From: Candidatus Macondimonas diazotrophica
GTDB lineage: Bacteria; Pseudomonadota; Gammaproteobacteria; UBA5335
Reading direction: 5' to 3'
NCBI RefSeq assembly: GCF_004684205.1
Contig: NZ_SRIO01000011.1
Location: forward strand, 1-64,000
DNA: 64,000 nucleotides
This document shows positions 4,312-44,942 of the stretch, in pieces. The translations under genes were made by a program, and so were the position numbers. The notes below the pieces were generated by a model. It was not told where the DNA came from and did not search any database. It saw only the letters and a program-made list of their open reading frames with translations. Each line of letters opens with the position of its first letter. Within the stretch, counting starts at the first letter, position 1.

Positions 4312-5868
4312 TCAGCGAATGATGTCGTAGCTGTAGTCGGTCTTGGCCGGAACGATGGTGTTCTTGTCGATCTCGTCGAAGATCTTGTCCAGGATCCACA
4401 CCAGCACGTTCATGGCGCCCTGATAGCCCCACACCGGGTAGCGGTGATGGTGGTGGCGGTCGAACACCGGGAAGCCGATGCGGATCAGTGGCGTGCCGGT
4501 GTCGCGCTCCAGGTACTTGCCGTAGGTGTTGCCGATCAGGAAGTCGACCGGTTCGGTGAACAGCAGCGAGCGCATGTGCCACAGATCCTTGCCGGCGTAG
4601 GCGTTGCAGCTCTTGCCGAAGGGCGAGCTGTCGAACAGCGCCTGCATCTTCGCGGCCCAGTCCTTGTTGCCGTTGGTGGCCAGGACGTGGGTCGGCTCGG
4701 CGCCCAGTTCCAAGAGGAACGCCGCCAGGCCGTAGCACAGGTCGGGATCGCCGTAGATGGCGAACTTCTTGCCGTGGATGTGGGCGTTGGAGTCGGCGAT
4801 GGCGTCGACCAGCCGGCCGCGTTCCTTGGCCAGCGCTTCGGGGATCGCCTTGCCGGTGAGCTTGGAGATGCCCATCAGGAACTGATCGGTGGCGGCGATG
4901 CCGATGGGATGGTTGAACGCCAGCGTTTCCTGACCCTTGTCGGCACAGAAGTCCAGCGTCTTGGTGGTGCAGTATTCCTGCATGGAGACCGTGGCCTTGG
5001 CATTCAGCGCCGCGGCAGCGTCGTCCAGCGTGGTGCCGCCGTCGTACATGCGGAACTCGCCGTCGGTGGGCGTATCCCACACGTCGGACGCATCGCACAG
5101 CAGGGTGTACTCGACGCCCATGAGATCGAACATCCGCGCGATTTCGCGTTGGTTGCCGACGGTGTAGCCGTCGAAGCCGCCGATGAAGTTGATCTTCTCG
5201 TTCGGCGTCCGCTCGGGCACCGGTACGGTGCCGGCCTTGCCGTCCCAGAAGTGCTTGAGCACGCCCAGCAGGGCGTTGTCGTAGCCGGTGATGTGGCTGC
5301 CGACGAAGGCCGGGGTGTGGGCGAAGGGCACGTCGAATTCTTCCGGCACCGAGCCCTTTTCCTTGGCGTTTTTGATGAACGCATTGAGGTCGTCACCGAT
5401 GACCTCGGCCATGCAGGTGGTCGACACCGCGATCATCTTCGGCTGATACATGGCGTAGGCGTTGGCCAGACCATCGACCATGTTGTTGAGGCCGCCGAAC
5501 ACGGCGGCGTCTTCGGTCATGCTGGAGGACACACAGGAGCTCGGCTCCTTGAAGTGCCGGCTGAAGTGGCTGCGGTAGTACGCCACGCAGCCCTGCGAGC
5601 CGTGCACGAACGGCAGCGTGCCCTCGAAGCCGACGGCCACGAAGACCGCCCCCAGCGGCTGGCAGGCCTTGGCCGGGTTTACGGTGAGCGCTTCGCGGGC
5701 GAAGTTCTTCTCACGGTATTCCCAGGTCTTGGTCCATTCCCGGGCCTGTTCGAGCTTGTCGGCTGGCTCGGGGTTCTCGAACTGTTTCTTGTTCTCGAAC
5801 ATCTCGATGTATTCCGGGCTGCGGAACAGGTTGAAATGGTCGAGCACGTTTTCAGCATTCTGGCTCAT
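4312..5868 (-). CDS. nifK: Nitrogenase MoFe protein beta chain
   Basis: A 518-residue NifK, the usual length. With NifD it forms the alpha2beta2 MoFe protein that reduces N2. Conserved features include [23 protein letters not shown] with the P-cluster cysteine region, the [16 protein letters not shown] segment, [13 protein letters not shown], and the C-terminal [20 protein letters not shown] block. The start at 5868 is chosen because it has AGGAG seven bases upstream and matches the MSQNAE-type family start; a longer frame to 5925 lacks this. It lies 92 bp after nifD in the same transcript. A strong hairpin terminator follows directly, so nifT/nifY are not adjacent here. Confidence 0.98.
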
Positions 5869-5960
5869 GGTGCTACTCCTGCTGGAATCGGTAGGGTGGG
5901 CAGGGCGGCCCGGCCCACCAGTCAATCAATCGGGTACGCCGCCCACCCTCCGTGTGCCGA

Positions 5961-7418
5961 TCAGGCAGCCTTCCACGGCGCCTGCGTCAGCGACCACACC
6001 GGGTTGTTGATGGCCATGTCCATGTCGCGGGCGAAGATGGCGAAGCCGTCATAGCCGTGATACGGACCGGAATAGTCCCAGGAGTGCATCTGCCGGAACG
6101 GGAAGCCCATTTTCTGGAAGACGTACTTTTCCTTGATGCCCGAGGCCACCAGATCCGGCTGCAGCGCATCGACGAATTGCTCGAACTCGTAGCCGGTCAC
6201 GTCGTCGTAGATCAGCGTGCCGTCCTTCACATAGTGGGTGGTGCGCTGGTAGTCGTCGTTGTGGCCGAACTCGTAGCCGGTGCCGATGACCTCCATGCCG
6301 AGATCCTCATAGGCGCCGATGACGTGCCGCGGGCGCAGACCGCCGACGAACAGCATCACCTTCTTGCCTTCCAGGCGCGGGCGGTATTTATCCACCACCG
6401 CCTGCATCAGCGGCTGGTACTTGGCGATGACGCGCTCGGCGCCTTCCTTGATCTTGTCGTCGAAGTGGTTGGCGATTTCGCGCAGACTGGCGGCGATCTT
6501 GGAGGGGCCGAAGAAGTTGTATTCCACCCACGGAATGCCGTACTTCTCTTCCATGTGCCGGCTGATGTAGTTCATCGACCGGTAGCAGTGCAGCACGTTG
6601 AGCTTGGCCTTGGGCGTGGCTTCCAGCTCGGCCAGAGAGCCGTCTCCGGACCACTGCGCGATCACGCGCAGACCCATTTCTTCGAGCAGGATGCGCGAGG
6701 ACCAGGCATCACCGCCGATGTTGTAGTCGCCGATGATGGCGACGTCATACGGCGTGGCCTCGAAGGTGGTTTTCTCGGGATCGAGCTTGTCGAACACCCA
6801 GTCGCGGATGGAGTCATTCGCGATGTGGTGGCCGAGCGACTGGGACACGCCCCGGAAGCCCTCGCAGCGCACCGGCACGATGGTCTTGCCTTCGTATTGC
6901 TTGGACTTCGACTTGGACACGGCCTCGATGTCATCGCCGATCAGGCCGATCGGGCATTCCGACTGCACGGTGATGCCGTGGTTCAGCGGAAACAGGTCCT
7001 GGATTTCATCGATGATCTTGGCGAGCTTCTTGTCGCCGCCGAACACGATGTCCTTTTCCTGGAAATCGGATGTGAACTGCATGGTCACGAAGGTGTCCAC
7101 GCCGGTGGTGCCGATGTAGTAGTTGCGCCGCGCGGCCCAGGAATACTGGCCGCAGCCCACCGGACCGTGGGAGATGTGGATCATGTCCTTGATCGGGCCC
7201 CACACCACGCCCTTGGAGCCGGCGTAGGCGCAACCGCGAATGGTCATGACGCCGGGAATCGACTTGACGTTGGATTTCACGCCGCAGTCGGACTTGCCTT
7301 CTTCATAGGTGCCGAGGTGCTTGCCGCGGCGCTTGGCCGTCTTGTCGGGATAGACCGACAGCACCTCGTCCACCAGCGCCTTGTTGCGCGCCTTGGTTTC
7401 TTCGACAGTCATGCTCAT
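5961..7418 (-). CDS. nifD: Nitrogenase MoFe protein alpha chain
   Basis: A 485-residue NifD. P-cluster cysteines sit in IRGCAYAG (about 63), [10 protein letters not shown] (about 89) and [11 protein letters not shown] (about 155). The FeMo-cofactor ligands are in [11 protein letters not shown] (Cys about 279) and [14 protein letters not shown] (His about 446). The start at 7418 has GGAGG five bases upstream. It follows nifH by 57 bp and precedes nifK, giving the standard HDK order. Nothing suggests a V- or Fe-only nitrogenase: there is no delta-subunit gene, and the alpha chain is of the Mo type. Confidence 0.98.
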
Positions 7419-7475
7419 GGGAGCCTCCAGAGGGAAAAGAGGCCGGGCGGATGAGCCGCCCGGCGGAAACCGGCT

Positions 7476-8504
<1,029 letters not shown>

Positions 8505-8579: not shown

Positions 8580-8595
8580 TGTGACAAACCCGACA
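8580..8595. promoter_or_regulatory. NifA-type upstream activator site (nifH-proximal)
   Basis: TGT-GACAAACCCG-ACA matches TGT-N10-ACA. It is centred about 115 bp upstream of the predicted nifH start site and could serve the divergent gene as well. Confidence 0.65.
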
Positions 8596-8721: not shown

Positions 8722-8789
8722 TGGGACCCCTGATGAGCCGGCGGCCGGGCGCGGCTCACCCCCTGCATCCCGGATCGGAGGACATCCCC

Positions 8790-9188
8790 ATGCAAATCGG
8801 AGTGGAAAGCGCCCGCGCGGTCGAAAACCGTCGCGTCTTCGTCGTGGACAGTGACGAAATCATTCGCGCCGCACTGCAGTTCATGCTGCACGACGAAAAC
8901 GAGGCCCATGAGATCGAGTCGATGGATGCCGCGATCCAGAAAGCCGCCGATTGGCCACCGGATCTGATTCTGGTGGGGCAGGAACTGCTGAGATCCGCTG
9001 GTTCGTCGGCGGTGCTGGAACGGCTGAAGGCCACGCTCGGGCCGGTGCCGGTCGTGCTGGTCGGCGATACCGCTGATGCGGCGGTCTGCCAGGCCCTCGA
9101 CGGCGGCGCGCAGGCTGTGATCCCGCTTCCGCTCAAGCTCGAATCGGTGCGCGCGGCGGTGGATCAGGCGCTGGGACGCCGTGCCTGA
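8790..9188 (+). CDS. Degenerate receiver-domain protein divergent from nifH
   Basis: A 132-residue protein with the fold pattern of a CheY-like receiver alone: RRVFVVDSDEIIRAAL (acidic pair at residues 20 and 22), PPDLILVGQELL, VPVVLVGDTADA and GGAQAVIPLPLKLESVRAAV. The expected phospho-acceptor Asp at the end of strand 3 is Gly (residue 63), and the usual Lys-Pro pair is altered, so phosphotransfer is unlikely. The start at 8790 has GGAGG nine bases upstream. No output domain is fused. Its position between nifH and the isc operon, next to NifA-type sites, suggests a binding or regulatory role in nitrogen fixation; that is inference. Confidence 0.7.
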   Translation: MQIGVESARAVENRRVFVVDSDEIIRAALQFMLHDENEAHEIESMDAAIQKAADWPPDLILVGQELLRSAGSSAVLERLKATLGPVPVVLVGDTADAAVCQALDGGAQAVIPLPLKLESVRAAVDQALGRRA

Positions 9189-9235: not shown

Positions 9236-9251
9236 TGTCGGATTCGCGACA
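9236..9251 (+). promoter_or_regulatory. NifA-type upstream activator site of the isc operon
   Basis: TGT-CGGATTCGCG-ACA matches TGT-N10-ACA. It is centred about 123 bp upstream of the start predicted from the sigma-54 element at 9340-9355. Confidence 0.7.
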
Positions 9252-9339
9252 AGGCCGCCGGGTTCAGGAAGCAGGATCCGGCGCCGCGATTTGATTCGGA
9301 TCATCGCCAATCCAAACACTTAAGCGGTCCGGCGCAGAT

Positions 9340-9355
9340 TGGCACACGCATTGCT
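9340..9355 (+). promoter_or_regulatory. Sigma-54 promoter of the isc operon
   Basis: TGGCAC-ACGCA-TTGCT is a perfect match to the sigma-54 consensus TGGCAC-N5-TTGCW. The predicted start near 9366 is about 50 bp before iscS. Confidence 0.85.
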
Positions 9356-9417
9356 CAAGACCCTGTAGAAGCCTTGCACCGCAGGGCAGGAATCCTGATC
9401 ACACAGGGGTGTTCGAT

Positions 9418-10641
9418 ATGACCAGCGCCCGCCGCCTTCCCGTTTACCTCGACTATTCCGCCACCACGCCGGTGGCGCCGCAGGTCGCGGAAAAGATGAT
9501 TCCCTACCTGACGGATATGTTCGGCAATCCGGCCAGTCGTACGCATGCCTATGGCTGGCAGGCCGAGCAGGCGGTCGAAACGGCTCGGGAACAGGTGGCC
9601 GCGCTGGTCGGTGCGGATCCCAAGGAAATCATCTGGACCTCGGGCGCCACCGAATCGGACAACCTGGCCATCAAGGGCGCGGCGCAGTTCTACCGCGGCA
9701 AAGGCAACCACCTGATCACCCTCTCCACGGAACACAAAGCCGTGCTGGACCCGATGCGGGAGCTGGAGCGGGACGGTTTCGTGGTGACCTACCTCGATCC
9801 CGAGAGCAGCGGTCTGCTGAATCTCGATAGCTTCACCAGCGCCCTCACCCCCCAGACCATCCTGGTGTCGGTGATGCTGGTGAACAACGAGATCGGAGTC
9901 ATCCAGGACATTGCCGCGATCGGCGCGATCTGCCGCGAGCGCGGGATTCTGTTTCACGTCGATGCCGCCCAGGCACCGGGCAAGATGCCGATCGACCTCA
10001 AGACCCTGCCGGTCGATCTGATGTCGTTCTCGGCCCACAAACTCTACGGCCCCAAGGGTATCGGCGCCCTGTACGTCCGGCGCCGGCCGCGCGTGCACCT
10101 GACCCCGCTGATTCACGGCGGCGGTCACGAACGCGGTCTGCGTTCCGGCACCCTGCCCACCCACCAGATTGTCGGCATGGGCGAGGCGTATCGTCTGGCC
10201 GGCGAGTTGATGGCGAGCGAGAACGAACGCATCCGTGCCCTGCGCGACCGCTTTCTCACCGGTATCGCGGACATCGACGAGGTCTACGTCAACGGTGATC
10301 TCGAAGCGCGCGTGCCGCACAACCTCAATATCAGCTTCAACTTCGTCGAAGGCGAATCGCTGATGATGGCCGTCAAGGATCTGGCCGTTTCCAGCGGCTC
10401 GGCCTGCACCTCGGCAAGCCTGGAACCCTCGCATGTGCTGCGTGCCCTGGGTCGCAGCGACGAACTGGCGCACAGCTCGCTGCGTATCACGCTGGGCCGT
10501 TATACCACCGCCCAGGACATCGATTTCGCGGTCGCGCTGCTCAAAGACAAGGTCGCCAAGCTGCGTGCGCTCTCGCCCCTCTGGGACATGCATCTGCAAG
10601 GCATCGATTTGAACACGGTGCAGTGGGCGGCCGCTCACTGA
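9418..10641 (+). CDS. iscS: Cysteine desulfurase IscS
   Basis: A 407-residue PLP-dependent cysteine desulfurase that supplies sulfur for Fe-S assembly. It begins [22 protein letters not shown], the IscS start pattern; the PLP lysine lies in [17 protein letters not shown], and the active-site cysteine in [21 protein letters not shown]. The C-terminal tail and close fit to housekeeping IscS separate it from NifS. The ATG at 9418 has AGGGG eight bases upstream; a GTG at 9409 is the alternative. It heads an operon driven by a perfect sigma-54 promoter and no IscR gene precedes it, unlike the usual iscRSUA order. Confidence 0.95.
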
Positions 10642-10663
10642 GTCATCTGAAGGAGGTCATCCC

Positions 10664-11077
10664 ATGGCTTATAGCGACAAGGTAATGGATCACTACGACA
10701 ACCCGCGCAACGTCGGCAACTTCGACACCGGCGAGACCGCTGTCGGCACCGGCATGGTCGGTGCCCCGGCCTGCGGGGACGTGATGCGGCTGCAGATCAA
10801 GGTGAGCCCCGAGGGCATCATCGAAGATGCGCGCTTCAAGACCTACGGCTGTGGTTCGGCCATCGCGTCCAGTTCGCTGGTCACCGAATGGGTGAAAGGC
10901 AAGACGCTCGATGAGGCGCTCACGATCAAGAACGCCGACATTGCCGAGGAGTTGGCTCTGCCACCGGTGAAGATCCATTGCTCGGTGCTGGCCGAGGATG
11001 CCATCAAGGCGGCGATCACCGATTACCGCAGCAAACAGGGAGGCGATGCCTCCGAATCCGCCGCCTCGGCGGCCTGA
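10664..11077 (+). CDS. iscU: Fe-S cluster scaffold IscU
   Basis: A 137-residue scaffold on which [2Fe-2S] and [4Fe-4S] clusters are built. The three ligand cysteines are in [21 protein letters not shown] and [10 protein letters not shown], with the HscA-binding LPPVK motif just before the last. The C-terminal ~10 residues (an Ala/Ser-rich tail after SKQGG) extend past most IscU proteins. GGAGG lies seven bases before the start. It follows iscS by 22 bp. No NifU-type fusion (C-terminal Nfu domain) is present. Confidence 0.95.
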
Positions 11078-11099
11078 TCCAATTCCCGGGAGAATCGTT

Positions 11100-11453
11100 A
11101 TGTCTGCCGTCGCCACACCGACCCCCGCTCCGCTGCAGTTGACGCTCAGCGCCATCGGCAAGATCAAGGAGCTGCTCAGCGAGGAAAACAACGCCGATCT
11201 CAAGCTGCGGGTTTATGTCACCGGCGGCGGCTGTTCGGGTTTCAGCTATGGCTTCGCGTTCGAGGAAACCAACGCCGAGGATGACAGCCTGTTCGCGCAG
11301 GATGGCGTCGCGGTGGTCGTCGATCCGATGAGCTTTGCCTATCTGGCCGGCGCCGAGGTCGATTTCGAGGAAGGGCTTGAAGGCGCCCGTTTCATCATCC
11401 GCAACCCCAATGCCAAGACCACGTGTGGCTGCGGCAGCTCGTTTTCGGTGTGA
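11100..11453 (+). CDS. erpA: A-type Fe-S carrier, ErpA-like
   Basis: A 117-residue A-type carrier that passes clusters to target proteins. It reads [23 protein letters not shown] and ends [11 protein letters not shown], both patterns of ErpA more than IscA. The cysteines at GGGCSGF and CGCGSSF are the cluster ligands. It lies between iscU and a second A-type gene; ErpA is usually encoded away from isc in gammaproteobacteria, so its presence here is a notable departure. The start at 11100 follows a GGGAGAATCG site. Confidence 0.85.
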
Positions 11454-11463
11454 GGAATCGGTC

Positions 11464-11793
11464 ATGAGTGTGACATTGACGGAACGTGCCGCGGCCAGGA
11501 TGCAGCGTTCGCTGGCCGGACGCGGCAAGGGGCTCGGCATCCGGCTGGGCGTCAAGACCAGTGGCTGCTCGGGCATGAGCTACGTAATGGAGTTCGTCGA
11601 CGAGGTCGATGACGGCGACGCATGCTTCGAAAGCCAGGGCATGACGGTCGTGATCGACGCTCGCAGCATGCCGTATCTGATGGGTACCACGCTCGATTTC
11701 GTGCGCGAAGGCCTCAACGAGGGCTTCAAGTTCGAGAATCCCAACGCAAAGAGCGCCTGCGGCTGTGGCGAAAGCTTCAGCGTCAGTGCCTGA
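11464..11793 (+). CDS. iscA: A-type Fe-S carrier IscA
   Basis: A 109-residue A-type carrier of the IscA subgroup, beginning [18 protein letters not shown] and containing [24 protein letters not shown] and a C-terminal [11 protein letters not shown]. The three ligand cysteines are at the standard places. It begins 10 bp after the ErpA-like gene, so the operon carries two A-type carriers in tandem, which may serve different acceptors. Confidence 0.92.
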
Positions 11794-11820
11794 ACACGAA
11801 AACGCCTGAGGTCATTCGTC

Positions 11821-12357
11821 ATGACAGCAATGGTCGCGATCGACTATTTCGCGGTGTTCGGCTTGCCGCCTGCGTTCGCGCAGGACCTGACCGAGCTCGA
11901 GCACCGCTATCTCGACCTGCAGCGGCACGCCCATCCGGATCGCTATGCGCATCAGGATGCTGCGCAGCGCCGTGCCGCCGCCGAGGCGGCGGCGCACATT
12001 AACGAAGCCTATCGGCAGCTCAAGGATCCACTAGCCCGTTCCACCCACCTGCTTGCCTTGCGTGGGGTGGAGGTCTTGTCCGCCGGTTCCATCCCCTTGC
12101 CGGCGGACTTTCTTCTTCAACAGATGGATTGGCACGAAGCGCTCGACACTGCCCGTCGAGCCGGCGATGCCAGCCAGCTCAGCGGCCTGACTCGGGACCT
12201 GCGCGCCGAATGGGCGCGCCTCGAATCCCGGCTGTCCAGGGCGCTCGACGAGGGCGGCGACAATGCGGACGCCGCGGCCACCGTGCGCCAGCTCATGTTC
12301 CTGCGCCGATTGATCGAACAGGCGCAGAGCGCGCTCGATGCCGAGGAGTTGTCATGA
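11821..12357 (+). CDS. hscB: Co-chaperone HscB
   Basis: A 178-residue J-type co-chaperone that brings IscU to HscA. The N-terminal J domain carries the HPD motif in [14 protein letters not shown], followed by a C-terminal helical IscU-binding domain ([10 protein letters not shown] and [12 protein letters not shown]). Length matches the family (about 171). Its stop overlaps the hscA start (ATGA). Confidence 0.93.
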
Positions 12358-14228
12358 GTCTGCTGCAGATTCTGGAGCCCGGCAGTGCCGCGGAAACACC
12401 CGTTGCCCGTCGCCGCGCGGTGGGGATCGATCTCGGCACCACCCACTCCCTGGTCGCCACCATCGAAGCGGACGGCAGCAGCCGGATCCTGCGCGACGAG
12501 AACGGTGGCGCCCTGCTCCCCTCGGTGGTCTGTGTGCTGCCCGACGGGCAGGTTCAGGTCGGGCGGCCGGCGCAGGCCCTGGCCGGCACCCATCCGCAGA
12601 CGACCTTCCGGTCCATCAAGCGGTTCATGGGTCGCGGCGCGGTCGATCTCAGCGAAGCGGGCACCCTGCCCTACGCCATCGTTCCCGGCGAAGGCACCGT
12701 GCGGTTTCAAAGCGCGCGCGGCCCGCTCTCGCCCGTGGAAATCTCGGCCGAAATCCTCAAGCTGCTGCGCCAGCGCGCCGAGCAGGCTCTGGGCGGCTCC
12801 GTCGAAGGCGCGGTGATCACGGTGCCAGCCTACTTCGACGATGCCCAGCGCCAGGCCACGCGCGATGCCGCGCGGCTCGCCGGGATCGAGGTGCTGCGCC
12901 TGCTCAACGAGCCGACCGCCGCCGCCGTGGCCTATGGCCTGGACAATGCCAGCGAGGGGGTTTACGCCATCTACGATCTGGGCGGGGGCACCTTCGACCT
13001 GTCCATCCTGCGGCTGCGCCAGGGGGTGTTCGAGGTGCTTGCCACTGCCGGCAACACCGCGCTGGGCGGGGATGATTTCGATCGCCGTCTGGCCGAGTGG
13101 TTCATCTCCCAGATGGGATTGACGCCGAATGCAGCGGGCTTCGGCGAACTGCTCACCCAGGCGCGCCAGGTCAAAGAGGCCCTGAGCGCGACCGAGGCGC
13201 TGGAAATCGCTCTGGACACCGGCGCGGACGCTCCCGTGGTGCATCGCATCACCCGCGCCCAGTTCGGCGAGATGACGGCCGATCTGGTGGACAAGACGCT
13301 GCGGCTCACCCGGCGCGCGCTGCGCGATGCCGGCTTCACACCCGATCAGGTCGATGGCGTGGTGCTGGTGGGCGGCGCCAGCCGCATGCCGCAGGTCCGC
13401 GCAGCGGTCGCCGAATGCTTTGGCCGGCCGCCCTTGACCGATCTCGATCCCGACCAGGTGGTGGCGCTGGGCGCCGCGCGCCAGGCCGACGTGCTGGCCG
13501 GCAATCGCCGCGATGGAGATGACTGGCTGCTGCTGGATGTGATTCCGCTGTCGCTCGGCATCGAGACCATGGGCGGACTGGTGGAGAAGATCATCCCGCG
13601 TAACAGCACCATCCCCATCGCGCGGGCCCAGGATTTCACGACCTTCAAGGACGGCCAGGGCGCGATGAGCGTGCATGTGCTGCAGGGTGAGCGCGATCTG
13701 GCGGCCGATTGCCGCTCACTGGCGCGCTTCGAGCTGCACGGCATTCCGCCCATGGCGGCCGGTGCCGCGCGCATCCAGGTGATGTTCCAGGTCGACGCCG
13801 ACGGGCTGGTGAGCGTCTCAGCCACCGAACAGACCACGGGCGTCGCCGCCCAGGTGACCGTCAAGCCGTCCTACGGCCTCAGCGATGAGGAAATCACGCG
13901 CATGCTCGCCGATTCCCTCGCCCATGCCGGGGACGACGCGGCGGCGCGCATCCTGGTCGAGCAGAAGGTCGAGGCCGAGCGCCTGGTGGAGGCCACCCGT
14001 GCGGCCCTGAATACCGACGGTGCGGCCTTGTTGACCGATGCCGAAGTCGCGGCGCTGCTCCAGGCCCTGCACGGGATGGAGCAGGCCATCACGGGCCATG
14101 ACGGCAGCGCCATCAGCGCGGCCAAGGCGATGCTCGAGCCGCTCACCGATGCGTTTGCGGCGCGCCGCATGGATCACAACATCCGCACCGCACTGGCCGG
14201 GCGCCAGGTGGGCGAGCTTGGAGGCTGA
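12354..14228 (+). CDS. hscA: Fe-S assembly Hsp70 chaperone HscA
   Basis: A 624-residue specialised Hsp70 that uses ATP to release clusters from IscU. The nucleotide-binding domain shows [30 protein letters not shown] and [14 protein letters not shown]; the substrate-binding domain begins near [14 protein letters not shown]. Length equals E. coli HscA (616) closely, and the C-terminal lid is shorter than in DnaK. The start at 12354 overlaps the hscB stop by 4 bp; the longer in-frame extension to 12129 runs inside hscB and is not credible. Confidence 0.95.
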
Positions 14229-14229
14229 C

Positions 14230-14568
14230 GTGACCCGACTCACCGTGTTGCCGCATCCCGAACTCTGTCCCGAGGGCGCCGAGGTCGAGGCCGCGCCCGG
14301 CGTGCGCCTGTCCGATGCCCTGCTCAAGGCGGGCGTGGAAATCGAACATGCCTGCGAGAAGGCCTGCGTGTGCACCACCTGCCATGTGGTGATCCGCAAT
14401 GGTTTCGAATCCCTGCGTGCGGCCAGCGACGACGAGGAAGACCAGCTCGGCAAGGCCTGGGGACTCGAGCCGACCTCACGGTTGTCCTGCCAGGTGCGCG
14501 TACCGCAGAGCGGCGCGCTGGTGGTGGAAATCCCCCGCTACAGCCGGAACTTCGTGCGTGAACACTGA
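14230..14568 (+). CDS. fdx: Isc-type [2Fe-2S] ferredoxin
   Basis: A 112-residue adrenodoxin-like ferredoxin that delivers electrons to Isc assembly. Ligands are in EHACEKACVCTTCHV (C-x5-C-x2-C) and LSCQVRVP. The GTG at 14230 lies one base after the hscA stop and gives the family start TRLTVLPHPELCPEG. Operon order hscA-fdx-iscX is that of gammaproteobacterial isc operons. Confidence 0.92.
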   Translation: MTRLTVLPHPELCPEGAEVEAAPGVRLSDALLKAGVEIEHACEKACVCTTCHVVIRNGFESLRAASDDEEDQLGKAWGLEPTSRLSCQVRVPQSGALVVEIPRYSRNFVREH

Positions 14569-14578
14569 GGCGCCTGTC

Positions 14579-14773
14579 ATGAAATGGACCGACGTGCTGC
14601 CGATTGCCCAATCCCTGGCCGATCATCACCCCGAGGTGGATCCGCGCGCGCTGCGCTTCACCGATTTGCACCGCTGGGTAACCGAGCTCGACGGCTTCGC
14701 GGATGATCCCACCCGTTCCAACGAGCGGGTGCTCGAAGCGATCCAGATGGCCTGGATCGAGGAAATGGACTGA
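14579..14773 (+). CDS. iscX: IscX/YfhJ
   Basis: A 64-residue acidic protein, MKWTDVLPIAQSLADHHPEVDPRALRFTDLH onward, with the LHRWVTELDGFADDPTRSNERVLEAIQ helix. IscX binds IscS and iron and tunes the assembly rate. Length fits the family (66). It starts 10 bp after fdx. Confidence 0.92.
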   Translation: MKWTDVLPIAQSLADHHPEVDPRALRFTDLHRWVTELDGFADDPTRSNERVLEAIQMAWIEEMD

Positions 14774-14817
14774 ACGTGCTGTTTGTTAAGTATCTCTGCG
14801 TTTGAGGAGTTGCTGAA

Positions 14818-15126
14818 ATGTCCCTGCTCACCATCATGCCATCCGGAAAAACCATCGAGGCCGCCGAGGGGCAAACGCTGCTGGAGCTGATTCTGGCGGC
14901 CGGTGAATCCATCCCCCACAAATGCGACGGTAATGCCAAATGCGGCAGCTGCCACATTTTCGTTCAGGCCGGACGCAAGAGCCTGTCGAAAATCAGCCCA
15001 CTCGAAAACGAGAAGCTGGACAGCATCGTCGGCGTGGGGTCCAAGTCGCGCCTGGCCTGCCAGAGCCGCATCACCGGCACGGAAGACATCAACGTCGAGC
15101 TGCTCGGGTTCGCCTCCGGCTTCTGA
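14818..15126 (+). CDS. Second [2Fe-2S] ferredoxin at the end of the isc operon
   Basis: A 102-residue plant-type [2Fe-2S] ferredoxin with ligands in HKCDGNAKCGSCHIFV (C-x5-C-x2-C) and RLACQSRI. It differs from the Isc ferredoxin at 14230 and resembles ferredoxins encoded in nif regions of other proteobacteria. A GAGGAG site lies about 7 bases before the start. The 44-bp gap after iscX holds no obvious promoter, so it is probably the last gene of the operon. It may be the electron carrier specific for nitrogen fixation; that is inference. Confidence 0.85.
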   Translation: MSLLTIMPSGKTIEAAEGQTLLELILAAGESIPHKCDGNAKCGSCHIFVQAGRKSLSKISPLENEKLDSIVGVGSKSRLACQSRITGTEDINVELLGFASGF

Positions 15127-15325: not shown

Positions 15326-15910
15326 ATGGCGACGGCCAAAGCAACGGATGATCGGTACTTCGAGCTTCATGGACTGAAATCACAAGCCCCGGAAGCGTTG
15401 AACCGGGCGCTGCAGGACGCCATCAGTGCGATGCACGAGACGCTCTACGGCCCCTCGACCGAGGAACTGCCCGCTGAGGAGCAGGCCCTGCTGAAGGGCG
15501 CCGGCATGCGCATGGCCGAGCGCGCGGGCGCGCCCGATCCGTTGCTGGACTACGCCACGTGCTTCGCGGCGCTGCTCGACACCAGCCTGACCCCCGCCGA
15601 GGCCGCATTGCGCCTTGGCGTGACACCGACCCGGGTGCGCCAGCTGATCAGCGATGGCGCGCTGTACGCGTTTCGGGTCGACCGCAACCTGCGCATTCCG
15701 CTGTTCCAGTTTCAGGGAAACGGGCTGCTGCCGAATCTGGCACCGGTCAATGCCGCGCTGACCAGCGATCTCGACCCGGTCTCGGTATGGCGCTGGTTCA
15801 GCGCGCCGGATCCCGAGCTCGAGACCGAGGCCGGTCCGCTGAGTCCGCTGTCGTGGTTGAAATCCGGCCGTGATCCCGAGGTGGTGATTGCGATCGCCCG
15901 GCAGTTGTGA
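15326..15910 (+). CDS. Antitoxin of a RES-type toxin-antitoxin pair (MbcA/ParS-like)
   Basis: A 194-residue protein. A helix-turn-helix-like segment LTPAEAALRLGVTPTRVRQLI lies near residues 95-115. The C-terminus PLSPLSWLKSGRDPEVVIAIARQL matches the toxin-binding domain of MbcA/ParS/Xre antitoxins. It is longer than most of these (about 110-150), with an extra N-terminal helical region. The ATG at 15326 has GGTGGAG four bases upstream. The stop overlaps the start of the RES gene (GTGA), the usual coupling of antitoxin and toxin. It probably binds and neutralises the toxin and represses its own promoter. Confidence 0.75.
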   Translation: MATAKATDDRYFELHGLKSQAPEALNRALQDAISAMHETLYGPSTEELPAEEQALLKGAGMRMAERAGAPDPLLDYATCFAALLDTSLTPAEAALRLGVTPTRVRQLISDGALYAFRVDRNLRIPLFQFQGNGLLPNLAPVNAALTSDLDPVSVWRWFSAPDPELETEAGPLSPLSWLKSGRDPEVVIAIARQL

Positions 15911-16542
15911 CGGCCCGGATTCCCGTCGAGCCGGACTCTGAGCGGCTCGCCGAACTCGACCCCGAGCTGCGGACGCTGCCGGCCGGCAGTCTGCTCTGGC
16001 GGGTTTATTTCCGCGCCGGCGCGCATCCGACACGATGGCGCGATTTTCGCCACTACGGCCCCGCCGACGCCCGTTTCGACCACCATCGCGATCTCCGACC
16101 CGGCTTGCAGGCCCAGGCCGTGATGTATCTGGCCGAAAGTCCCACGACCTGCCTCGCCGAAGTGTTCCAGAAAACCCGCGTCATCCATCGCGAAAGCCGT
16201 CAGCCCTGGCTGGTCGGGCTGCGTCTTGCCGCTGCGGTGGATTTGCTGGATCTGAGCGGTGCCTTTCCCACCCGCGCCGGCGCATCCATGGGCCTGATGA
16301 GCGGGCCGCGCTCGGTCGGGCGTAACTGGGCGCGGGGGTTCCATCGGGCCTATCCCGCAATCCACGGGCTGTATTACCCCTCCTCCATGCATGCCAACCG
16401 GCCCGCGCTGGTCCTGAACGAACGCGCCGAAGCTGCTGGCGTCATTCCGGTCATTCCCCAGTTTCACCGCGCCCTGGCCGATCCGGCCCTGCTGGCCGTT
16501 CTCAAGAACGCCGCGCTGGACATCGGATTCGCTCTGGGGTGA
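15907..16542 (+). CDS. RES-domain toxin
   Basis: A 211-residue RES-domain protein. The conserved Arg, Glu and Ser of the family are seen in LLWRVYFRAG, VMYLAESPTTCLAEVF and GLYYPSSMHANRPALVL. Characterised RES toxins (MbcT, ParT, PA1030) break down NAD+ or modify targets with it, so this is likely an NAD+-depleting toxin. The GTG start at 15907 overlaps the antitoxin stop by 4 bp. The pair sits alone between the isc operon and the FIST/SelO genes and could be an acquired stabilising or anti-phage module. Confidence 0.8.
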   Translation: MTARIPVEPDSERLAELDPELRTLPAGSLLWRVYFRAGAHPTRWRDFRHYGPADARFDHHRDLRPGLQAQAVMYLAESPTTCLAEVFQKTRVIHRESRQPWLVGLRLAAAVDLLDLSGAFPTRAGASMGLMSGPRSVGRNWARGFHRAYPAIHGLYYPSSMHANRPALVLNERAEAAGVIPVIPQFHRALADPALLAVLKNAALDIGFALG

Positions 16543-19609: not shown

Positions 19610-19625
19610 TGTCGCATGTGCGACA
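19610..19625 (+). promoter_or_regulatory. NifA-type upstream activator site of the bolA cluster
   Basis: TGT-CGCATGTGCG-ACA matches TGT-N10-ACA and its core is itself palindromic. It is centred about 120 bp upstream of the start site predicted from the sigma-54 element. Confidence 0.65.
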
Positions 19626-19710
19626 AACCCGACACCCACGGCGTCGACGCCAAGGCGATCATGGCCCGCAAACCGGGGATTTGCCGCGCTTGACGCGCGC
19701 TGCGCGCCGT

Positions 19711-19726
19711 TGGCGTGTGCATTGCA
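19711..19726 (+). promoter_or_regulatory. Sigma-54 promoter of the bolA cluster
   Basis: TGGCGT-GTGCA-TTGCA keeps the invariant GG and GC and the TTGCA -12 element, with two changes from the -24 consensus. It lies 71 bp before the BolA start; the rest of the 382-bp gap from 19416 shows no gene. Confidence 0.75.
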
Positions 19727-19797
19727 TCACCTGCAGCGAAGCGACACGGCCGCTGCCGGTCGCCGGTTCGGCCGGCTGATTGCGTGGAGAACATCCT

Positions 19798-20082
19798 ATG
19801 GGGATTGCACAGGAACGAGTGGACCGCTTGCGGGCCCGTCTGGAAGCGGCACTGGATCCCGCAGCGCTCGACATCATCGATCACACCGAGGCGCATGGCC
19901 ACGACCCCCAGGCCAATGGCGCGGGGCACTACCTGATCCGGGTGGTGTCGCAGCGCTTTGACGGCGTGTCGGTCATCGGCCGCCATCGCCTGGTGTACGA
20001 CGCCGTGGCCGCGATGATGCCGGCCGAGGTGCATGCGCTCAGCATCAAGGCGCAGACGCCAACCGAAGCGGGGGTGGCGTGA
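19798..20082 (+). CDS. BolA-family protein
   Basis: A 94-residue BolA-fold protein. The family core is visible as DPAALDIIDHTEAHGHDP, AGHYLIRVVSQRFDGVSVIGRHRLVYDAVAAMM and AEVHALSIKAQTP. BolA proteins bind a [2Fe-2S] cluster together with monothiol glutaredoxins and take part in Fe-S and iron handling. The ATG at 19798 has GGAG eight bases upstream. It is the first gene behind the sigma-54 promoter and overlaps the next gene by one base (TGATG), which links it to a cluster of unfamiliar genes. A glutaredoxin is not in the window. A role in nitrogenase cluster supply is inferred from the promoter. Confidence 0.9.
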   Translation: MGIAQERVDRLRARLEAALDPAALDIIDHTEAHGHDPQANGAGHYLIRVVSQRFDGVSVIGRHRLVYDAVAAMMPAEVHALSIKAQTPTEAGVA

Positions 20083-20441
20083 TGGCACAGGAACAATCGG
20101 ACTTCCAGGCGGGCGACGCGGCGGAAACGCCGGTGCTCATCCGGCACACCCAGGACGGTCGGCGGGTCGAGGTCATCGGCCGCTTCCTCTGCCTGGATGG
20201 GCGCCGTGAGACCGATGCACTGGTCGATGTGCGTCAACATCCCAACCGCATGGCCATCTGGCAGGCCGCACCCGAGGCCACCCACATGGCGGGCCGCATC
20301 CCGCTCACGCGCGAGGAAGCCGCCCGCGCCCAGGCAGCGCTGGACGCGGCCCGCGCCGTCTACGAAGCAAGCCCCATGGCCATCTCCGAGCGCATCCGCC
20401 ACGCGGCGGACGACATTCTGCGGTTGCGCATCGATGAATGA
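20082..20441 (+). CDS. Uncharacterised protein of the bolA cluster (119 aa)
   Basis: A 119-residue soluble protein with no signal peptide and no cysteine pair to suggest an Fe-S site. The first half is strand-rich (VLIRHTQDGRRVEVIGRFLCLDGRRE), the second half a long helix (LTREEAARAQAALDAARAVYEASP). I recognise no family. The start codon shares its first base with the BolA stop, so translation is coupled. Confidence 0.7.
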   Translation: MAQEQSDFQAGDAAETPVLIRHTQDGRRVEVIGRFLCLDGRRETDALVDVRQHPNRMAIWQAAPEATHMAGRIPLTREEAARAQAALDAARAVYEASPMAISERIRHAADDILRLRIDE

Positions 20442-20471
20442 GCACGCCGCCCCGGCCGGGAACGCGACGCC

Positions 20472-20939
20472 ATGATTCATGTCGTGGAGGTGCCGTGGGA
20501 CGGCCGTCCGCAGGCCTGGTTCGCCTTCGATGAAGACGATCTGATCGGCAAGATTCAGGCTCGGCGTACCGGGGTCGGCCAGCAGATCTACGCGGTGGCC
20601 ACGCCGGGCGAACTGCTGGCGGCCGCTGGGGTGGATTCGGATGCGCCGCCGCAGTGGATCGCCGACCTCGCCGCGCAGCATGGCTGGGACACACCGCTGT
20701 ATCGCGCCGATGCGCTGCTCGAGCCGGGGCACTACCAGCGCGAACCGGTGAACGTTCTGCACGCGCATCTGGCCGCCTTGGCCGAGCCCCTGCAATCGTG
20801 CCGCGTGCATCCGGACGATGAAAGCGCGCTGGAGGCGCTCTATGGCGATCCGGCCTATCAGGCGCGTGCCGGATTCTACGCGCACATGGCGCTGCGCGAG
20901 CAGCTCATCGCGCTGGAGGTCCTGGCCGATGACCTCTGA
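20472..20939 (+). CDS. Uncharacterised protein of the bolA cluster (155 aa)
   Basis: A 155-residue soluble acidic protein beginning MIHVVEVPWDGRPQAWFAFDEDDLIGKI. It has a mixed N-terminal part and a helical C-terminal part rich in Leu and Ala, with no motif I can assign. The 30-bp gap after the preceding gene and 12 bp before the next keep it in the same transcript. Confidence 0.7.
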   Translation: MIHVVEVPWDGRPQAWFAFDEDDLIGKIQARRTGVGQQIYAVATPGELLAAAGVDSDAPPQWIADLAAQHGWDTPLYRADALLEPGHYQREPVNVLHAHLAALAEPLQSCRVHPDDESALEALYGDPAYQARAGFYAHMALREQLIALEVLADDL

Positions 20940-20951
20940 ACGCCGCGCGCC

Positions 20952-21728
20952 ATGACCGAGTTTCTGCCGATCGACGGGCAGGACTTGCAGCGGCTGCTGC
21001 AGGACCCGCGCACGCGCATCATCGATGTGCGCTCATCGCGCGCCTATGCGGCGGGACATCTGCCCGGTGCCCGGCACTTTACCCGGAGCCTGCTCGGCCG
21101 TATGCGCCGGGAATGGCCCGGTGATGTCCCCATCGTGGTCTATGACGACGCCACCGGCGCCAGCGAGCAGATCGCGCAGCTGCTCAACCATCTGGGGTTC
21201 ACGGCGGTCCACAGCCTGCGGGGCGGCTACGCCGCCTGGCGCATACCGCGCTCCCGACGCAGCGCCGGCGTCCTCCGGCTTTCGGCGGCCCTGCGCGCCT
21301 GGCTGCTCGATCAGGGCTTCGACACCGAGGATCTGGAACGCGCCACAGCCAACGGCATGACCGCCCTGCTCCAGGCCTGCCGGATCGGCCATGCGGCCCA
21401 TGTCCACGCCCTGCTCGAGGCCGGCGCCAGCCACAATGCGGTCACCGTGGACGGCACGACCGCGTTATGGCTGGCCTGCTTCGCCGACAGCCCGCTCTGT
21501 GCGCTGCACCTGATCGAACGGGGCTTCGACGTCGACCACGCCAATCCAACCGGCGATACCGCGCTGATGTACGCCGCTTCGGCAGGGCGCGACCGCATGG
21601 TGCGGCTGTTGCTGGAAGCCGGCGCCGATCCCGGGCGCTGCAATCAGGATGGATTCACCGCCTTCGACATGGCCGCGACCCAGAACGCCTATTTCCTGTT
21701 GCGACCCAAACGGCCACAGGTCGCCTGA
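20952..21728 (+). CDS. Rhodanese-like domain fused to ankyrin repeats
   Basis: A 258-residue two-domain protein. Residues about 5-100 are a rhodanese-like fold (IIDVRSSRAYAAGHLPGARHF, then IVVYDDATGASEQIAQLL and SLRGGYAAW). The active-site loop, where a catalytic Cys is expected, has Asp65 (VVYDDATG), so sulfurtransfer by the classical route is unlikely. Residues about 115-245 hold at least three ankyrin repeats (NGMTALLQACRIGHAAHVHALLEAGA; GTTALWLACFADS; GDTALMYAASAGRDRMVRLLLEAGAD), suited to protein binding. A nif-linked rhodanese (RhdN) is known in Azotobacter. The likely role here is a binding platform. Confidence 0.85.
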   Translation: MTEFLPIDGQDLQRLLQDPRTRIIDVRSSRAYAAGHLPGARHFTRSLLGRMRREWPGDVPIVVYDDATGASEQIAQLLNHLGFTAVHSLRGGYAAWRIPRSRRSAGVLRLSAALRAWLLDQGFDTEDLERATANGMTALLQACRIGHAAHVHALLEAGASHNAVTVDGTTALWLACFADSPLCALHLIERGFDVDHANPTGDTALMYAASAGRDRMVRLLLEAGADPGRCNQDGFTAFDMAATQNAYFLLRPKRPQVA

Positions 21729-21746
21729 AGCGCGGGGAGATTCCGC

Positions 21747-22184
21747 ATGAGCTCGATTTTCATCAGCATCAACAAGTCCGATACGCTGGAAAAGTCGCCC
21801 ATTGACAAGGCGATCACCCGCACGGCTGCCGCCCTTGCCCGCCAGCGCGCCCTGTTGCCACCCGGCCCGGGTCTGGAGGTGACCTTCATGCCCGCCTCGG
21901 AGGATTGGCAGCCGGATTTCATGGGCATGCGCATGGGCGGCTACCATGACGACGATCCGGTGCTGCGCTTTCAGGTGGCGATTCCGGCGCATCTCGCGCA
22001 CTCGCCGCTGGCCCTACGCTATGTGCTGGCGGTTCTGGAGGATGTCCTGGCCAATGCCCAGGCCTATTTCGATGAGCAGCGCATCGTCTTCGACCATGCC
22101 GCCTGGCAACGCGCCTTGAGCGTTGCTGCCAGCGTTTCGGAGGATCCACCCGAATCGGCCTGGAACGAATATCCCCTCGAATGA
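21747..22184 (+). CDS. Uncharacterised protein of the bolA cluster (145 aa)
   Basis: A 145-residue soluble protein, MSSIFISINKSDTLEKSPIDKAITRTAAAL onward, with a Met-rich FMGMRMGGYHDDDP segment in the middle and a helical C-terminus. I recognise no family. GGGGAG lies six bases before the start, and the gene follows the rhodanese/ankyrin gene by 18 bp, as the last member of the cluster. Confidence 0.7.
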   Translation: MSSIFISINKSDTLEKSPIDKAITRTAAALARQRALLPPGPGLEVTFMPASEDWQPDFMGMRMGGYHDDDPVLRFQVAIPAHLAHSPLALRYVLAVLEDVLANAQAYFDEQRIVFDHAAWQRALSVAASVSEDPPESAWNEYPLE

Positions 22185-42040: not shown

Positions 42041-43597
42041 TCAGGAACCTCCACCATCGAGACGTTTGAGCAGGCGATGCAGATTGGCTGGATCGAGGCC
42101 GAGTTCGCGCGCGGCAGCCGCGCGGTTGCCGCCATGGCGTGCCAGCGTGTCCGCCACCATCGTCTGTTTGAACGTGTCCACCGCTTCGCGCAAGGTGAGC
42201 GTGGGGGTTTTGGAGTCGGTCGGCGGCGCGGGTACGAACGGGGCGATGCTCGGTGCCAGATCCAGATGCGCGGCATGCAGCGTCACGATGCGGATCGAGT
42301 TGGGCTGCTCTTGTGCGACCGCCCGGACTGCCGCCCGGCTGATGAGGTGTTCGAGTTCCCGCACGTTCCCGGGCCAGGACTGACGTTGCAATGCGGCCTG
42401 TGCGTCGGAAGCCAGCCGCAAACCACGCAAACCCAGGCGAGCCCGGTTTTCCTCCAGAAAGCCACCGGCCAGCAGCAACACATCGTGTCCGCGCTCGCGC
42501 AGCGGCGGTACGTGCAGTGGATAGACGCTCAGACGGTGATAGAGGTCGGCCCGGAAACGTCCGGCGCGCACCTCCGCAGCAAGATCGCGATTGGTGGCCG
42601 CCAGCACCCGGACATCAACACGATGCTCCCGATCCGAACCCAATCGCTCGATCTGCCCACTCTGAAGGACGCGCAGCAGTTTTGCTTGAATGGGAAGCGG
42701 CAGTTCGCCAATCTCGTCCAGCAGGAGGGTGCCACCGTCAGCGAGTTCAAAGCGACCGCGCCGCTCCCCAACTGCACCGGTAAACGCGCCGCGCACGTGA
42801 CCGAACAGCTCGCTTTCGACCAGATGTTCCGGAAGCGCCGCGCAGTTCAGGGTGATCAACGGCCGGCCCGCTCGGCGTGAGCGGGCATGAACGGCCTGCG
42901 CCACCAACTCCTTGCCCGTTCCGGTCTCGCCGGTGATCAAGACAGTGAGATCGGTATGGGCAACGGCCTCGATCTCCTTTTCCAAACGGCGCATCGCCCC
43001 GCTGTGCCCGGTGAGCGTCCGACCACCGTTCGGACCTCGAGCCTCGAACAGCAAGCGAGCCACCTGCTGATCCTGTTCGGCACGCCGGGCGAGACGTTCG
43101 AGACGTTCGACGGCGATCACGGTTGCGGTGGCCAGCGTGGCGAATGCCTGCAGCACGACTGGGTCGCAGGCCTCGAAGGCCTCCGGCTGCAAAGCGTCCA
43201 GGGTAAGCAGTCCCCAGAAATGGTCCTCGACGTACAGCGGACACCCCATGCAGTCGTGGATTTCGAGTTGGCCGGTCAGTCCCTCGATCAAGCCGTCGTA
43301 CGGATCAGGAAGGCCGCAGTCGCTCGGGAGTCGGGTTGGGCCGCGTCGGTTCACCATCGTCAACAACCGTGGATGGTCGACCAGTCGGAAACGTCGGCCC
43401 AGTGTGTCGTGGCTGAGCCCGGTAACGGCCAGTGGTACGAGGCTGTCACCTTCCAGACGCAACAGGGCTGCGGCATCACATGGAAACACGCTCCGCAGCC
43501 CATCGAGGAAGGCCCGATAGCGTTCCTGGGGGGTAAGCTCCCGGGGCAGGTTCCCGACCAGTCCGACGTAGGTGGAAAAGAATGTGGGCGGAGTCAT
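42041..43597 (-). CDS. norR: NO-responsive sigma-54 activator NorR
   Basis: A 518-residue NorR (525 if the ATG at 43618 is used). It has an N-terminal GAF region (to about residue 175), a AAA+ domain with GETGTGKELVAQAVH, the GAFTGA loop (HVRGAFTGAVGER) that contacts sigma-54, and LLLDEIGEL. The C-terminal helix-turn-helix is AARELGLDPANLHRLLKRL. NorR senses NO through a mononuclear iron in the GAF domain and activates NO-detoxifying genes. It is divergent from hmp, and three GT-N7-AC boxes fill the space between. The start is uncertain because neither ATG has a good ribosome site. Confidence 0.9.
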   Translation of the reverse strand: MTPPTFFSTYVGLVGNLPRELTPQERYRAFLDGLRSVFPCDAAALLRLEGDSLVPLAVTGLSHDTLGRRFRLVDHPRLLTMVNRRGPTRLPSDCGLPDPYDGLIEGLTGQLEIHDCMGCPLYVEDHFWGLLTLDALQPEAFEACDPVVLQAFATLATATVIAVERLERLARRAEQDQQVARLLFEARGPNGGRTLTGHSGAMRRLEKEIEAVAHTDLTVLITGETGTGKELVAQAVHARSRRAGRPLITLNCAALPEHLVESELFGHVRGAFTGAVGERRGRFELADGGTLLLDEIGELPLPIQAKLLRVLQSGQIERLGSDREHRVDVRVLAATNRDLAAEVRAGRFRADLYHRLSVYPLHVPPLRERGHDVLLLAGGFLEENRARLGLRGLRLASDAQAALQRQSWPGNVRELEHLISRAAVRAVAQEQPNSIRIVTLHAAHLDLAPSIAPFVPAPPTDSKTPTLTLREAVDTFKQTMVADTLARHGGNRAAAARELGLDPANLHRLLKRLDGGGS

Positions 43598-43603
43598 TTT
43601 CAC
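43593..43603. promoter_or_regulatory. NorR-type box 1
   Basis: GTCATTTTCAC fits the NorR core GT-N7-AC and overlaps the predicted norR start codon, which may allow self-control. Confidence 0.5.
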
Positions 43604-43613
43604 ATTCAGTAAT

Positions 43614-43624
43614 GTCATATTAAC
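43614..43624. promoter_or_regulatory. NorR-type box 2
   Basis: GTCATATTAAC fits GT-N7-AC. It shares the GTCAT start with the other two boxes and lies 21 bp from box 1. Confidence 0.55.
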
Positions 43625-43638
43625 AATGGTCAGTCGTT

Positions 43639-43649
43639 GTCATTGTGAC
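43639..43649. promoter_or_regulatory. NorR-type box 3
   Basis: GTCATTGTGAC fits GT-N7-AC and is the most palindromic of the three. It lies 25 bp from box 2 and about 45 bp before the sigma-54-like element of hmp. Confidence 0.55.
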
Positions 43650-43691
43650 CTGATGAAGCATTGATCTCAATCATATCAGCAGCTTCTCTCA

Positions 43692-43708
43692 TGGCACGAA
43701 ATCTGTCT
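43692..43708 (+). promoter_or_regulatory. Sigma-54-like promoter of hmp
   Basis: TGGCAC-GAAAT-CTGTC has a perfect -24 element, but the -12 reads CTGT instead of TTGC, so the call is moderate. It is about 70 bp before the hmp start and downstream of the NorR boxes. Confidence 0.45.
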
Positions 43709-43763
43709 CCTGGAGCACAGGCGCGCATGGCGCGCCGTCACCGGCAACCAGGAGGATGATTCC

Positions 43764-44942
43764 ATGCTTTCGGCTCAACACCGCGACATCGTCAAGGCCA
43801 CCGTCCCGCTGCTCGAAACCGGCGGCGAGGCGCTGACGCGCCACTTCTACGGAATCATGCTCGCCGAGTATCCGGAGGTCCGCCCGCTGTTCAACCAGGC
43901 GCACCAGGCCAGCGGCGCGCAGCCACGGGCGCTGGCCAACGGCATCCTGCAGTACGCCCGGCACATCGACCGGCTGGACACGCTCGGCCCGCTGGTCGGG
44001 CAGATCGTGCAAAAGCACGTGTCGCTGCAGGTGCTGCCGGAGCAGTACCCCATCGTCGGCAGCTGCCTGCTGCGCGCCATCCGCGAGGTGCTGGGACCGG
44101 ACATCGCGACCGATGCCGTCATCGAGGCCTGGGCGGCGGCCTATCAGCAACTGGCGGATCTGCTGATCGGCGCCGAGGAAGATGTGTACGCCGCCGCCGC
44201 GGCGACCCCCGGCGGCTGGCGCGGCGCGCGGCGGTTCGAGGTGGTGCGCAAGGTGCCGGAGAGCGTCGAGATCACCTCCCTCTACCTCAGGCCGGCCGAC
44301 GGCGGCGCCGTGATGCCATTTAAGCCCGGCCAGTACATCGGCATCCGGCTCACCGTCGACGGCCAGGAAGTGCGGCGCAACTACTCGCTCTCAGCCCCGC
44401 CGAACGGCAGCACCTACCGCATCAGCGTCAAGCGCGAACCCGGCGGCGTGGTGTCGAACCACCTGCACGACGCGCTCGGCATCGGGGCCGCGATCGACCT
44501 GTTCCCGCCGGCCGGCGAATTCGTGCTCGCGCCCGGCGAACGGCCGCTGGCGCTGATCAGCGGCGGTGTCGGCATCACCCCCACGCTGCCCATGCTGCAC
44601 GCGGCGCATGAGCAGCGCCGGCCGGTCACCTTCGTGCATTTCGCGCGCAATGCGGCGGTGCATGCGTTTCGGGACTGGGTGGACGACCTGGTCGCACGCA
44701 GCCCGCAGGCACGACGCTTCTACTGTCACGAACAAGCCGGCACCCTACCGGTGGACGCCCACGGCCGCGCGTGCACCGACCTGTTGGCGCGCTGGCTGCC
44801 GCAGGCGCGCGACATGGACGCGTACTTCATCGGCCCGCCACCGTTCATGGCGGCCGTGAAGCGGGCCCTGGGCGAGCTTGGCGTACCGCCGGCGCAGATG
44901 CACTGGGAGTTCTTCGGCCCGGCGGCGGCGCTGGAGACCTGA
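43764..44942 (+). CDS. hmp: Flavohaemoprotein (nitric oxide dioxygenase)
   Basis: A 392-residue Hmp that turns NO and O2 into nitrate. The globin domain (to about 140) begins MLSAQHRDIVKATVPLLETGG, with the haem His in QIVQKHVSLQ; the FAD domain has RNYSLSAPPNGSTYRISVKRE, and the NAD domain LALISGGVGITPTLPML and YFIGPPPFMAAVKRAL. Length equals E. coli Hmp. AGGAGG lies before the start. It leads a cluster with hemerythrin, DUF488 and nitronate monooxygenase genes, opposite norR. Confidence 0.95.
   Translation: MLSAQHRDIVKATVPLLETGGEALTRHFYGIMLAEYPEVRPLFNQAHQASGAQPRALANGILQYARHIDRLDTLGPLVGQIVQKHVSLQVLPEQYPIVGSCLLRAIREVLGPDIATDAVIEAWAAAYQQLADLLIGAEEDVYAAAAATPGGWRGARRFEVVRKVPESVEITSLYLRPADGGAVMPFKPGQYIGIRLTVDGQEVRRNYSLSAPPNGSTYRISVKREPGGVVSNHLHDALGIGAAIDLFPPAGEFVLAPGERPLALISGGVGITPTLPMLHAAHEQRRPVTFVHFARNAAVHAFRDWVDDLVARSPQARRFYCHEQAGTLPVDAHGRACTDLLARWLPQARDMDAYFIGPPPFMAAVKRALGELGVPPAQMHWEFFGPAAALET

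Follow-up and report, generated by a model that had tools for sequence, protein, structure and literature searches.

The locus under study lies on the forward strand of a 64-kb stretch of DNA (the window) and consists of five consecutive genes. The first, bolA (19,798–20,082), encodes a BolA/IbaG-family protein of 94 residues (Pfam BolA, 3e-23) and overlaps by one base with the gene of p119 (20,082–20,441). After 30 bp follows p155 (20,472–20,939), which features a predicted alpha/beta fold, and after a further 12 bp a gene for a protein of 258 residues, in which a rhodanese-like domain (PF00581) is fused to ankyrin repeats (20,952–21,728). The last gene, p145 (21,747–22,184), starts 18 bp downstream. 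p119 and its pair partner p155 as well as p145 represent unnamed families linked to nif genes. The overlapping or tightly spaced run of five genes described in an earlier note on this DNA is borne out, with all genes on the same strand. An intrinsic terminator could not be detected 3′ of p145, and the operon locus shows neither terminator-like nor sigma-70-like sites.

The operon is preceded by a NifA upstream activator site (UAS) of the form TGT-N10-ACA (TGTCGCATGTGCGACA; 19,610–19,625, forward strand) and a strong sigma-54 −24/−12 promoter element (TGGCGTGTGCATTGCA; 19,711–19,726, forward strand). The distance of 101 bp between them falls within the range of approximately 80 to 150 bp accepted for such pairs; the element shows the GG-N10-GC arrangement with TGGC and TTGC blocks, and bolA starts approximately 71 bp 3′ of it. 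The sigma-54 element alone is insufficient as proof because its pattern occurs 92 times in the whole genome. A promoter was defined as a UAS and a strict sigma-54 element that share a strand and lie 50 to 250 bp apart. Simulated sequences yield 0.04 such pairs per 64 kb, with any pair at all in eight of 200, and the window contains three—at nifH (8498, reverse strand), iscS (9340, forward strand), and bolA (19,711, forward strand)—which is far above chance. Both sites are kept and aligned before bolA in three relatives (L023, L024, and L029), with the intervening spacer diverged. At three further loci without BolA at this spot (L013, L014, and L022), this UAS/sigma-54 pair lies directly 5′ of p119. 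The bolA-operon promoter is real as judged by chance expectation, conservation, and relocation before p119. The earlier note had named both sites and had proposed control of the NifA/sigma-54 type; the sites are present, and such control is well supported by the promoter pair and its conservation in relatives. Conserved NifA sites before bolA were reported for Alphaproteobacteria in a comparative study, with the reason given as not known (PMC4999443). The two cases share a bolA gene under predicted NifA control; here, however, bolA heads an operon with p119–p155, and the host is gammaproteobacterial. No gene for NifA itself was identified in the stretches examined; the sole near match (42,041–43,618) was rejected, as it is NorR adjoining a flavohaemoglobin gene. 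NorR and the NO-inducible flavohaemoglobin (together 42,041–44,942) are divergent, with a TGT-N10-ACA match at 43,704 between them.

The two other NifA/sigma-54 promoters of the window belong to nifH, nifD, and nifK (4312–8369, reverse strand; sigma-54 element at 8483–8498, UASs at 8580 and 8610) and to an isc operon (9236–15,126) comprising iscS, iscU, iscA-type genes, hscA, and fdx. The sigma-54 element of the latter (9340–9355, forward strand) has its UAS 104 bp upstream at 9236. Since this promoter combines both sites and the operon encodes the only IscS above the family cut-off in the genome, NifA appears to control the main Fe–S system. Methylococcus nif clusters (L089) contain an isc block of similar kind. 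A second 2Fe-2S ferredoxin of 102 residues (14,818–15,126), possibly a Shethna-type protein, adjoins the isc operon and is found again in other nif clusters, where SIR2/DegT or nifW genes are its neighbours. Divergent from nifH lies the gene of a small stand-alone receiver-domain protein (8784–9188), which belongs to no NCBIfam family and is conserved beside nifH in G150, G169, and L035 at approximately 50% identity. Between the isc and bolA operons, genes for an HTH protein and a RES-domain protein (15,326–16,542) look like an Xre/RES-type toxin–antitoxin pair.

The BolA protein of the operon matches PF01722 over its full length (82 bits against a cut-off of 25.7) and is one of the genome's three BolA paralogues. 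It is 43% identical to a BolA from the nif cluster on a Methylococcus plasmid; BolA genes of the Methylococcus nif cluster have grxD or a SIR2 gene as a neighbour. The rhodanese domain is recognized by PF00581 (1.5e-18), and the NCBIfam GlpE match (4.9e-15) stays below its cut-off. Its active-site loop reads VYDDATGAS in the window as opposed to IYCYHGxAS or VVCDHGHSS in nif-linked relatives—the catalytic Cys is replaced by Asp, a loss found only in the window organism among the relatives seen. A sequence that we take to be E. coli GlpE served as the guide row of the alignment; the conclusion on the Cys residue rests on the fetched relatives instead. We infer a loss of sulfurtransferase activity, and an active role of this kind was rejected for this organism. 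Because the catalytic Cys is gone, the protein is probably a binding module. It shares a recognizable rhodanese domain with single-domain rhodaneses of the GlpE type but differs from these by the ankyrin fusion and the Cys-to-Asp replacement. The previous description as a rhodanese-like/ankyrin protein stands for the domain and the repeats, with the reservation that the active-site Cys is absent. Other nif clusters carry members of this family at different positions, some of which consist only of ankyrin repeats. In two genomes (G045 and G184), p145 relatives are located beside a flavodoxin gene, close to nifEN.

The protein p119 features a core of approximately 105 residues with the motifs EHPNR and ATHMAGR. 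Searches with single proteins and profiles yielded no Pfam, NCBIfam, or PDB sequence relative for p119, p155, or p145, and none of 46 p155 members and 41 p119 members matches Pfam. Chance-level matches to O-FucT (1e-4) and HEPN_AbiV (0.14), neither of which reaches its curated cut-off, and to BGL14 (0.011) were discarded. Confident AlphaFold models were obtained, at a pLDDT of 92.9 for p155 and 86.7 for p119; Foldseek found no significant match to either in the PDB, the best E-values for the two models being 0.47 and 2.1. The alignments of p119 and p155 contain no conserved Cys/His set suggestive of a metal site, and neither protein shows a known redox fold or a conserved Cys pattern. Pairwise distances of p155 track those of NifD and NifK (r = 0.78–0.79), with p155 being far more diverged. 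In the deposited genome of Paraburkholderia aromaticivorans, p119 and p155 are annotated as 'hypothetical protein' in the order nifK–p119–p155–nifE. No paper describing the genes of the operon together was found in the literature, and the text of an Azoarcus transcriptome study does not mention ankyrin or rhodanese.

The distribution of these families was determined in a class sample of 369 genomes, approximately 31 to 32 of which carry nifD. The profiles of p155 and p119 each match six genomes, and these six are identical (hypergeometric p ~ 3e-13). All six bear nif genes (p ~ 3e-7 counting the fragmentary genome G347; 2e-5 without it): five contain a full nifD, and G347 contains only a nif fragment. 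The profile of p145 matches seven genomes, all nif-bearing. In the GTDB collection of genomes, p155 is encoded at 56 loci, and all of these belong to Beta- and Gammaproteobacteria; carriers are Methylococcus, Methylotetracoccus, Paraburkholderia, Derxia, Hydrogenophaga, Leptothrix, Sphaerotilus, Ideonella, Rubrivivax, and MAGs. nifH, nifD, or nifK lies within the fetched stretch at 38 of the 56 loci, and nifK lies just upstream of p155 at 35. Of 17 loci with none of the three in the stretch, 16 are in genomes with nifD or nifE elsewhere, the exception being a MAG. Burkholderiales usually show the order nifHDK–p119–p155–nifENX. p119 and p155 hence show the confinement to nifHDK genomes and the usual linkage expected of nif accessory genes. 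The earlier note had only inferred a link to nitrogen fixation, which a lack of co-occurrence with nif would have spoken against. The link survives this comparison: all three unnamed families are restricted to genomes with nif genes, mostly at positions inside nif clusters. On this genomic evidence, the operon almost certainly belongs to nitrogen fixation. The genes could also be passengers that ride on nif islands with no direct role in the process, as the cluster has no known phenotype and p119–p155 is absent from 26 of the 32 nif genomes of the class sample. Such a reading is hard to reconcile with the conserved promoter footprint, with the exclusiveness of p119 and p155 to nif genomes over many genera, and with the retention of the pair when unlinked—in G136, p119 lies approximately 590 kb from p155, yet both are kept—and is considered very improbable.

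The full set of five genes was seen, beside the same FIST and SelO genes, only in the close relatives L023 and L024; the sequence of L029 ends after p155. A further locus (L022) carries p119–p155–p145, with the rhodanese–ankyrin gene absent at its position, and the p119–p155 pair usually occurs without an adjacent BolA or rhodanese–ankyrin gene. To the question of whether the same five genes recur beside nif genes elsewhere, the answer is hence divided: the p119–p155 core does and p145 is nif-linked, but there is no fixed five-gene set. The conserved core is p119–p155, and BolA, rhodanese–ankyrin, and p145 are nif-linked modules that move independently. Other small blocks recur in nif clusters as well. 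One (L085, 13,816–16,572; L089, 35,244–38,643) consists of NifT, a DegT-type aminotransferase, and a SIR2-family protein, and includes BolA in its L089 version; we know of no role of this block in nitrogen fixation. Another, found at many loci (L017, 38–2693), is a trio of an ATP-binding protein of approximately 565 residues, a protein of 83 residues, and a fumarylacetoacetate-hydrolase-type protein.

This modularity bears on an explanation by Fe–S or sulfur supply, according to which BolA, the rhodanese-like protein, and the unnamed proteins pass [2Fe-2S] clusters or sulfane sulfur from a NifA-controlled Isc system to nitrogenase. The NifA/sigma-54 promoter of the isc operon with its sole above-cut-off IscS would fit, as would the joint occurrence of BolA and grxD in the Methylococcus nif cluster. 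However, the core pair usually lacks BolA and rhodanese–ankyrin alongside, p119 and p155 carry no conserved Cys/His sets, and the catalytic Cys of the rhodanese is Asp in the window genome, so that this explanation is deemed unlikely.

The position of p119–p155 invites comparison with NifY/NafY, known from Azotobacter and Klebsiella as factors that bind the apo-MoFe protein and FeMo-co. They bind the FeMo-co-less MoFe protein awaiting its cofactor (PMC6016461; PMC8496260). A paper on the Rhodoferax antarcticus genome notes the absence of nifY (PMC5374385). Like p119 and p155, NifY/NafY are small nif-encoded proteins of the nifK–nifE interval, and the genomes examined have one, the other, or neither, never both. 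The NifY/NafY N-domain (PF16844) is found in none of the six p155 genomes of the class sample as opposed to 21 of 26 nif genomes that lack p155 (Fisher p = 5e-4). A search of 50 further p155 genomes gave no match either—0 of 56 overall—although this search had no internal positive control, the same family having matched 21 genomes in the class sample. No match occurs anywhere in the window genome. p119 and p155 are not themselves NifY/NafY proteins: they match neither PF16844 nor the NifX/NafY core domain nor any other Pfam family, and their predicted folds match no PDB entry. G138, from the family of the window genome, and G184 have NifY/NafY N-domain matches inside the nifK–nifE interval, and G138 has a NifT-like gene after nifK; in such gamma-type clusters other genes fill the interval that p119–p155 occupies in Burkholderiales. 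p119 and p155 also resemble NifW, NifZ, and NifT in being accessory genes of nif clusters that some diazotrophs lack, but are unrelated families; NifT is present separately in the window genome (contig C14).

The mutual exclusion of p155 and NifY/NafY was not upheld as statistically independent. It mostly separates two nif lineages of the NifD tree: 18 of 19 NifY/NafY rows fall into one long-branch clade, and the p155 rows belong to the other lineage. The latter also includes G303, which has NifY/NafY, and G013, G207, and G213, which have neither, and the association loses significance within this lineage (p = 0.44). Because the last three genomes lack both, neither p155 nor NifY/NafY is essential. 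Loss of NifY/NafY and gain of p119–p155 may be separate events. Since the exclusion largely tracks two nitrogenase lineages, replacement is put forward as a hypothesis only: p119 and p155 could conceivably be a two-protein, nonhomologous substitute for NifY/NafY and, hence, a new kind of MoFe-maturation chaperone in the beta/gamma nif lineage with folds unseen in the PDB, a proposal we hold tentatively and consider rather doubtful.

In Azotobacter, NifY/NafY, NifW, and NifZ bind immature or vulnerable MoFe protein and leave the mature enzyme. By analogy, p119 and p155 would be made together with nitrogenase from the NifA/sigma-54 promoter, would bind immature or vulnerable MoFe protein (NifDK) as assembly or stability factors, and would leave the mature enzyme; in the beta/gamma-type nif cluster, the pair may take the place of NifY/NafY. 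The probable task of BolA is the handling of [2Fe-2S] clusters together with a monothiol glutaredoxin, next to the rhodanese–ankyrin protein as the probable binding module. The operon may serve as a nitrogenase maturation or protection unit. That p119 and p155 act on MoFe-protein assembly is an evenly balanced proposition. Against it, NifX—a relative of NifY/NafY that appears to be present in the window genome and its relatives—could cover the same task, the pair and nifHDK are on opposite strands of the window genome, approximately 12 kb apart, and the exclusion of NifY/NafY is confounded with nif ancestry. Alternatively, p119, p155, and p145 may shield or repair nitrogenase or adapt its electron supply when aerobic free-living diazotrophs experience oxygen or redox stress, with no part in cofactor insertion. 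Most carriers are free-living or microaerobic (Methylococcus, Derxia, Paraburkholderia, Hydrogenophaga, and Sphaerotilus); nifD occurs on 239 plasmids, mostly of rhizobial symbionts, and p155 on only two plasmids of the collection; and the flavodoxin gene beside p145 relatives points the same way. However, the absence from symbionts may merely reflect nif ancestry, p119 and p155 lack the redox features named above, and the nifK–nifE position with predicted co-expression from nif promoters suits assembly at least equally well. A protective function is hence possible but somewhat unlikely.

Which genes an efficient nitrogenase requires is still being worked out, and attempts to transfer the enzyme into plants draw on a parts list mostly from Azotobacter and Klebsiella. 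Three families unnamed in Pfam and NCBIfam are kept inside the nif cluster by many free-living diazotrophs, and p119, p155, and p145 probably assist in the assembly or protection of nitrogenase as factors not described so far. If p119 and p155 do the job of NifY/NafY, they would add new parts to the nitrogenase list and would offer a testable answer to how diazotrophs without NifY finish their MoFe protein.
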